Shown here: positions 151 through 18,832 of the stretch, piece by piece
How the letters are laid out: each line of letters begins with the position of its first letter
Numbering within the stretch: the first letter of the stretch is position 1
Made by a program: the position numbers and the translations under genes
The notes under the pieces: generated by a model
The model's database searches: none
Seen by the model: the letters and a program-made list of their open reading frames with translations, nothing else
Told to the model about the DNA's origin: nothing
Assembly: GCA_016186995.1 (NCBI GenBank)
Contig: JACPKQ010000029.1
Coordinates: 1-28,991, forward strand
Length of the DNA stretch: 28,991 nt
DNA from: Deltaproteobacteria bacterium
GTDB lineage: Bacteria; Bdellovibrionota; JACOXK01
Direction of reading: 5' to 3'

Positions 151-239
151 GAAAGATATAATTCGCGCTATACCCTTCGTTACACTCAGGGTGACAGAAT
201 TCGAATCCATGAGCGAGTTTAAATTCGTGTTCATGTGAA
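145..239 (+). repeat. Dispersed GATGAC-type repeat, locus 1
   Basis: Bases 145-196 match the reverse complement of 7764-7817 with only a few differences, including a 28-base identical run ending in CAGGGTGACA. The core CCCT-TCGTTACACTC-AGGG is a small hairpin. The tail CGTGTTCATGTGAAG (225-239) matches the reverse complement of the left end of the 7.7 kb copy. The unit abuts the hairpin element at 232-317. Confidence 0.75.
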
Positions 240-7728: not shown

Positions 7729-7849
7729 TTCACATAAACACGTGTCACCCTGAATGCTTTCCCTGTCACCCTGAGTGTAACGAAGGGTATAATCACGAAT
7801 TATATCTTTCGCTATGCTCAAGATGACAAAAAATTCGTGTTTATGTAAA
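7729..7849 (-). repeat. Dispersed GATGAC-type repeat with terminal inverted repeats, locus 2
   Basis: Bounded by a 14-bp inverted repeat with one mismatch: TTCACATAAACACG (7729-7742) and CGTGTTTATGTAAA (7836-7849). Inside, 7764-7817 is the near-identical inverse of 145-196, and GATGACA occurs toward the right end. The unit starts right behind the nuoI-like gene and abuts the covarying element that follows. Confidence 0.75.
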
Positions 7850-8017
7850 AAAATGGTTACTATCTGGAGCGGAAATAAAGCGGAGCCACACGGTTTGTAA
7901 TTAAGATAAAATACTCTCATCCCGGACAGTGCTTTAGCACTTACGGGATAACGAAGAATTCATGTGGGACAACTACAGCGAGCCATGAAGCGAAAGATAG
8001 TAACCATTTTTAAGAAC
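7841..8017 (+). repeat. Covarying palindromic element, copy B
   Basis: Outer stem 7849-7865 with 7995-8011 is 17 bp and perfect (its unique part TTACTATCT/AGATAGTAA). Inner blocks TAAAGCGGAGCC, ACGGTTTGTAAT and GACAACTACAGCGAGCCATGAAGCG are shared almost exactly with copy C. GGTTTG (7892-7897) can pair with CGAGCC (7979-7984) using G-U pairs. A separate nested hairpin, ATCCCG (7919-7924)/CGGGAT (7944-7949) plus AGTGC/GCACT, sits in the middle. Right flank CCATTTTTAAGAACCAAG. Confidence 0.75.
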
Positions 8018-8035
8018 CAAGATTGTAGAAAAAGA

Positions 8036-18683: not shown

Positions 18684-18832
18684 CTATGTGAAGAAATGGT
18701 TTCAAGTCTGAAGTGTAAGTAAAGCGCAGCCCACGGTTCGTAATACTCTGTAAATATCGATCCTTCGGCTCAAGCCTCTGGATGACAACTACAGCGAACC
18801 ATGAAACGGAAGACTTGAGACCATTTCAAGAA
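18684..18832 (+). repeat. Covarying palindromic element, copy C
   Basis: Outer stem 18694-18709 pairs with 18811-18826 over 16 positions including one G-U pair; its unique part TTCAAGTCT differs from copy B. Left flank CTATGTGAAG and right flank CCATTTCAAGAACTT correspond to copies A and B. GGTTCG (18735-18740) pairs perfectly with CGAACC (18795-18800). The middle carries a different nested hairpin, GATCC-TTC-GGCT/AGCC-TCT-GGAT, of the GATGAC family. Confidence 0.75.

Follow-up and report, generated by a model that had tools for sequence, protein, structure and literature searches.

We describe a dispersed palindrome, apparently undescribed before, of which the home deltaproteobacterial genome (G000; 1.68 Mb in 30 contigs, 93% complete) carries ~45 copies, each with a near-constant core of ~26 nt set between self-complementary arms. 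Pairing of the arms is kept while their sequence changes, as had been proposed from the sequence of this stretch of DNA, and this result is supported in 11 genomes. We estimate a probability of about 0.5 that the palindrome is a non-autonomous mobile element, whose folded top strand would be moved via the core and whose arms would be made by fold-back copying.

The window, that is, the whole analyzed stretch of 28,991 nucleotides, contains the three hairpins reported in a preliminary description, A (232-320), B (7841-8017) and C (18684-18832). All of them fold well beyond dinucleotide shuffles (z -4.5 to -5.2; 0 of 200 shuffles were as good). Copy B lies on the + strand. Its left flank, TATGTAA (7842-7848), is common to the aligned home copies (consensus CTATGTGAAG) and is followed by the left arm of the outer stem P1, as placed by the fold (17 nt, 7849-7865, the exact complement of 7995-8011), the left core strand GGAAATAAAGCGGAG (7871-7885), the right core strand CGAGCCATGAA (7979-7989), the right P1 arm (7995-8011) and a TAAGAACC-like right flank (8012-8018), again common to the home copies (consensus CAAGAACCTAAG). 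Within the inner loop of B lies a nested palindrome of separate identity, ATCCCGG...CGGGAT (7919-7949, strand not assigned). Copy C, also on the + strand, shares the core blocks of B, as originally noted, and consists of a left P1 arm (18693-18709), the left core strand GTAAGTAAAGCGCAG (18715-18729), the right core strand CGAACCATGAA (18795-18805) and a right P1 arm (18811-18827), the arms being those of the fold. A covariance model built solely from 42 copies of other genomes (R1) matches B (7857-8003, + strand; 40.1 bits, E 1.1e-6) and C (18701-18819, + strand; 35.1 bits, E 1.5e-5), with no other match in the window. At window positions 170-205 and 7755-7830, the elements are flanked by a further repeat that is dispersed in the home genome (CCCTTCGTTACACTCAGGGTGACA with TATAATTCG).

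The three sites had been taken for copies of one element, which holds for B and C. Element A has fold-derived arms at 240-256 and 294-310 and its own constant core GAGGATCCACACCGGGCGGAGG at 263-284 (all on the + strand), the core being generalized as GAGGATC[CT]ACACCGGGCGGAGG, and it has only the flanks in common with B and C (TATGTGAAG on the left, CAAGAACC on the right). Used as a query against the home genome, A retrieves a separate set of ~20 copies. Because its core and its copy set are its own and the flanks alone are shared, A is not a B/C copy, and the three sites represent two families that are built alike and, in the home genome, have their flanks in common. The A core is multi-copy in the home genome, G002, G004 and G005 and has one match each in G006 and G007, these genomes all belonging to one class; the A hairpins in those genomes have near-perfect, unique arms of ~25-34 bp (e.g., L357, L364). 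A third, unrelated hairpin of the home genome (L088:1752-1930; arms AAAACAGGGGGAGTGCTT and AAGCACTCTCCCTGTTTT) is placed between the same flanks, TTATGTAAA... and CCATTTCAAGAACTTAAG.

The B/C family is far from confined to the window. B as a DNA query finds ~40 further B-type places in the home genome, and C as a query adds copies with other stem classes; the outcome named beforehand as a refutation, a genome free of additional copies, is thus clearly contradicted. The element is 60-180 bp long, with P1 arms of 12 to >30 bp as its outermost part. Inside P1 are the left core GGAAGUAAAGCGCAG, an inner loop and the right core CGAGCCAUGNA, and the position adjoining P1 is mostly G.A and sometimes C-G. 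The inner loop varies freely from 6 to ~90 nt and is closed by a co-varying pair. Loops in relatives are mostly 6-40 nt long and are free of the nested palindrome, which is carried by home loops except those of C and a few other copies. The ATCCCGG...CCGGGAT palindromes are a separate, very common repeat that has inserted into the element loop in both lineages (window 7919-7949; L217 in Coxiellaceae).

Several variants of the element were noted in the gammaproteobacterial carriers. A Woeseiaceae subfamily has an altered core, GAACTAAAGCGCAGC...GCGAGCCATTC or GGTAGTAAAG...CCATACC (L272, L276, L277, L279, L282, L290), and its P1 continues directly into the UAAAGC/GCCAU part, which narrows the essential core. 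Inner loops of Coxiellaceae (L296, L218-type) are either GUGGAAC or ACGGAGU; both form a 2-bp stem capped by a GGA triloop, and the switch from one to the other is again a paired change. In the gammaproteobacterium J054 (G097; L141, L128, L147), copies with GCAGC and GCAGG cores form inverted pairs, often ~110-300 bp apart, that resemble composite REP units.

A search of 97 relatives revealed a 26-nt identical block in G002, from a different family of the class, and a shorter block in G004. We scanned 84,980 species with an exact two-block core pattern. Matches with paired arms were found in Deltaproteobacteria GWA2_38_16 and RIFCSPHIGHO2_02_FULL_40_11 and, among gammaproteobacterial MAGs, in Coxiellaceae, Woeseiaceae, J054 and P_S1_bin.12. 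Since the scan demanded GC adjoining the core and short loops, this distribution is a lower bound. Four more matches, with no GCGGAAGTA upstream, were discarded as chance. With two or fewer mismatches, GCGGAAGTAAAGCGCAGC has 5-34 copies per carrier genome, as against 0-1 for the reversed pattern, and the B/C core is multi-copy in 10 genomes beyond the home genome, which include two further genera of its class as well as the gammaproteobacterial MAGs. Of 36 genomes in the order to which one Coxiellaceae carrier belongs, only 4 contain the element in numbers, and the relative that shares the home genome's family has zero copies. Plasmids and E. coli gave no core matches. Four matches in phages were at chance level, and two in viral contigs, without arms or left core, were also attributed to chance.

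The outer stems change in pairs, as first described. In the alignment of 27 home copies (A1), which includes the stem classes ATGGTTACTATCT, ATGGTCAGTGTCT, ATGGTCTCAAGTCT, ATGGTCTATGTCT and CTAACCTTTCAAATTTT, each complemented on the right, 15 outer-stem pairs show double changes, and the covariation score is 0.335 compared with 0.138 for shuffled alignments (0 of 500 as high) and <0.1 for slid ones. The GC/GC pair adjoining the core co-varies as well (columns 22-164 and 23-163; GC to AU and CG to UA), and the pair closing the inner loop changes from C-G to G-C across genera. The co-change suggested for the inner GGTTTG/CGAGCC segments is not borne out: in A1 the right CGAGCC is nearly invariant and the left counterpart varies (ACGGTT, AAAGTT, ATGTTT and others). 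In a second alignment (A2), 86% of cells are paired compared with 62.5% after shuffling and 36-46% after sliding, and the covariation score is 0.618 against 0.183 (shuffled) and 0.11-0.15 (slid). To fix the register, rows were admitted to A2 when 9 or more of 14 arm positions were paired, a choice that inflates its paired percentage and perhaps somewhat its covariation; the home set A1, which involved no such selection, leads to the same conclusion. The inner GC/GC pairs at A2 columns 24-49 and 25-48 never vary and are thus uninformative for or against pairing. Under a tree-based null, in which columns were simulated independently on a FastTree topology, the number of changes was matched and the G statistic was APC-corrected, A2 yields 11 significant pairs, and 11 of 11 fall inside the structure.

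Mispairs identify the strand on which pairing matters. Among mispairs flanked by Watson-Crick pairs, G-U outnumbers A-C by 239 to 37, by 94 to 31 after repeated position/type combinations within a genome are collapsed, and in 11 of 11 genomes. Strand-symmetric mutation predicts equal numbers of the two, so the excess means that folding of the GGAAGTAAAG-bearing (top) strand is maintained. This bias is compatible with folding as RNA and as single-stranded DNA alike, and an RNA gene does not necessarily follow from strong covariation, even when the null model takes phylogeny into account. Paired change had been read as implying that base pairing is kept. Pairing is indeed kept, and yet paired change alone is not proof of step-by-step selection, because template-switch copying also yields matched arms (PMC8794818).

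About 94% of scored copies lie outside ORFs, as called by simple codon usage. Relative to the upstream gene, copies have the same or the opposite orientation in 15 and 21 cases in the home genome and in 8 and 7 cases in G106; relative to the downstream gene the counts are 27 and 9 in the home genome and 0 and 10 in G100. A consistent cis-regulatory orientation was therefore rejected, as the orientation of copies to neighboring genes differs between genomes. Shared neighboring proteins revealed orthologous element sites, which were read for four elements among three Coxiellaceae MAGs. One such site is filled in the same orientation (L312/L221) and one in the opposite orientation (L311 versus L336), and the sites L332, L348, L343 and L337 are without the element; at L348 the two genes simply abut. 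The element is also absent from sites orthologous to the L215, L316 and L312 loci in relatives. Other sites are common to different species and have paired arm differences; these shared positions fit long residence as well as re-insertion. The preliminary description had asked whether orthologous loci lack the element precisely. Empty sites do exist in relatives, and at ~80-90% identity these relatives are too diverged for the ends to be fixed: neither a clean target-site duplication nor a precise boundary of insertion could be read from the orthologous sites in Coxiellaceae, and loss may also have emptied them. Taken together, the site data are best read as slow mobility or turnover combined with residence. 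The patchy presence, the empty orthologous sites and the one inversion resemble the behavior of a mobile element more than that of a cis-regulatory RNA.

The main competing explanation is a putative structured RNA, in which the core would be a protein-binding or catalytic internal loop in a dispersed small RNA or in a terminator- or stabilizer-like element at mRNA 3' ends, selected at each site. An asymmetric internal loop that is invariant, with stems free to vary, is what functional RNAs display; Woeseiaceae copies often lie within ~10-20 nt of stop codons and frequently between convergent genes; and several arms in G004 and G005 are A-rich on the left and T-rich on the right, as in bidirectional terminators. 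This alternative owes its weight chiefly to the G-U bias, to an internal loop like those of RNAs and to the stop-codon positions in Woeseiaceae. However, the orientation to the nearest gene is inconsistent, one orthologous site is inverted, the presence is patchy across an order and no Rfam family corresponds to the element, which makes an RNA role less likely than mobility in our judgment. Of the two possibilities raised at the outset, a working RNA or a moving folded single strand, the latter better fits the patchy, orientation-free presence and absence, although neither is proven. Pre-existing terminators as the source of the outer arms were considered separately and retained as possible for some G004 and G005 copies only, since many arms have no T-run.

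The arms themselves point to an origin by copying, or renewal by it, rather than by slow compensatory drift. In G004, pairing within a copy over arm positions 11-26, counted from the core, is 95% Watson-Crick and 3% G-U, and the left arms are 31% identical between copies. Likewise, the A family in G002, G004 and G005 (two copies each) has arms that are 97-100% Watson-Crick paired and 31-50% identical between copies. Under slow compensatory drift, arms would pass through many G-U intermediates on the way to becoming unrelated, and copying is therefore the simpler source. Template switching is a documented route by which hairpins are created, maintained and repaired, and a single event makes or mends a perfect stem and produces multi-base paired changes (PMC8794818). 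Capture of arms from elsewhere in the genome was rejected: each G004 left arm is found at its own two places in G004, with only two short, chance-level matches elsewhere and no significant third copy. In one A copy (L357), the last codons of a ligA-like gene are in one arm and their inverted copy is in the other; this single case fits copying from the host strand. Coxiellaceae arms have a between-copy identity of 0.7-0.9 and ~20% G-U, and thus ordinary drift via G-U intermediates acts there too.

Copying might even be the whole explanation, with a mobile or once-mobile core and arms matched only by template switching during replication and by gene conversion from copy to copy, folding itself being unnecessary. 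Near-perfect arms that are unrelated between copies and the paired multi-base differences at orthologous sites are in accord with such a process, template switching being a known maker of hairpins. We consider it unlikely, since it predicts equal numbers of G-U and A-C mispairs, contrary to the bias found in every genome, and leaves the invariant core across lineages unexplained. The template-switch hairpins described previously (PMC8794818) arise from a mutational process that involves neither a conserved core nor dispersal and that here would serve a repeated element.

The searches for a mobilizer gave no common partner. The Y1/RAYT domain (PF01797) is present in 3 of 11 carriers and missing from the home genome and 7 others (as MAGs, individual genomes may have gaps), and a reverse transcriptase is present in 4 of 11. 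At these frequencies both were rejected as universal partners, and a reverse-transcribed retron or group II derivative failed on the reverse transcriptase count. Genes recurring beside copies, examined as clusters without individual annotation, include no evident mobilizing protein family, and the stretches around matches contain no autonomous version in the form of a lone left core with a convincing gene-bearing loop. Rfam 15, at gathering and relaxed thresholds, returned nothing or chance miRNA precursors of the kind that any long hairpin attracts, and full-text string searches of the open-access literature found neither the B/C nor the A core in any relevant paper. Within these searches, the original view that no known RNA or repeat family is matched stands.

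The B/C element resembles dispersed mobile palindromes such as REP and GC clusters, yet lacks defining features of REP sequences and of MITEs. Like REP sequences and REPtrons with TnpA_REP (PMC8266576), it is intergenic, multi-copy, palindromic and orientation-free, and it would be recognized as a folded single strand. REP sequences have a conserved motif before a short hairpin, whereas recognition of B/C would involve an internal loop that is constant and lies midway along a long stem, B/C arms are unrelated between copies and the transposase domain is missing from most carriers. Multiple intergenic palindromic copies are present as in REPtrons; by eye, there is no GTAG/GGAG-type motif or other tetranucleotide constant across genomes at the hairpin foot. 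A REP/RAYT-type element moved by a TnpA_REP Y1 transposase would account for the strand-specific folding, but it is very unlikely given these differences, the distribution of the Y1_Tnp domain and arbitrary arms of up to 30 bp or more. Yeast mitochondrial GC clusters (PMC4478555) are also small mobile palindromes that quickly diversify, merge and shuffle; B/C in contrast is bacterial, keeps a fixed ~26-nt core between lineages and in some genomes has arms unique to each copy.

MITEs such as NEMIS/Correia and QMITE are short, non-autonomous, intergenic elements with inverted arms, in which the terminal repeats are the conserved part. By description only, B/C shares these general properties, but its arms are variable and its middle is conserved; conserved terminal inverted repeats were not found, as the arm identities above illustrate (31% in G004, 0.7-0.9 in Coxiellaceae). 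Integron-like attC sites, recognized through their structure by a tyrosine recombinase, follow a similar logic of conserved pairing, variable sequence and single-strand folding, but are hardly credible here, as neither of the 7-bp sites R' (GTTRRRY) and R'' (RYYYAAC) was seen by eye at the ends and copies are mostly solitary and genome-wide rather than in cassette arrays.

For the favored non-autonomous mobile palindrome, the following route can be proposed. A putative enzyme would read the constant core and not the arm sequence, and the element would be recognized and moved as the folded top strand, probably as single-stranded DNA. With no shared Y1 domain or reverse transcriptase, no enclosed gene and no recurring mobilizer, this machinery step is one that we infer. 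More speculatively, the arms may be formed or restored when the local strand is copied by template switching (fold-back), which would give every copy its own nearly perfectly matched arms. Afterwards, selection or re-mobilization would keep the top-strand pairing. More tentatively still, A and B/C may belong to a new class of mobile elements, in which a small structured core is inherited, the arms are built at each site by local copying and the whole is recognized as a folded strand, with two unrelated cores sharing one plan and also, in the home genome, one set of flanks.

Conserved ends or stems define the small bacterial repeats known so far, whereas the palindromes described here combine a constant middle with arms of arbitrary but matching sequence, a plan found in two separate core families, one of which spans distant bacterial lineages. 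If confirmed, these palindromes would provide a natural system in which strand-specific folding and the formation of perfect hairpins through template switching could be studied directly, and would name the core to be recognized by a new enzyme or RNA-binding protein.
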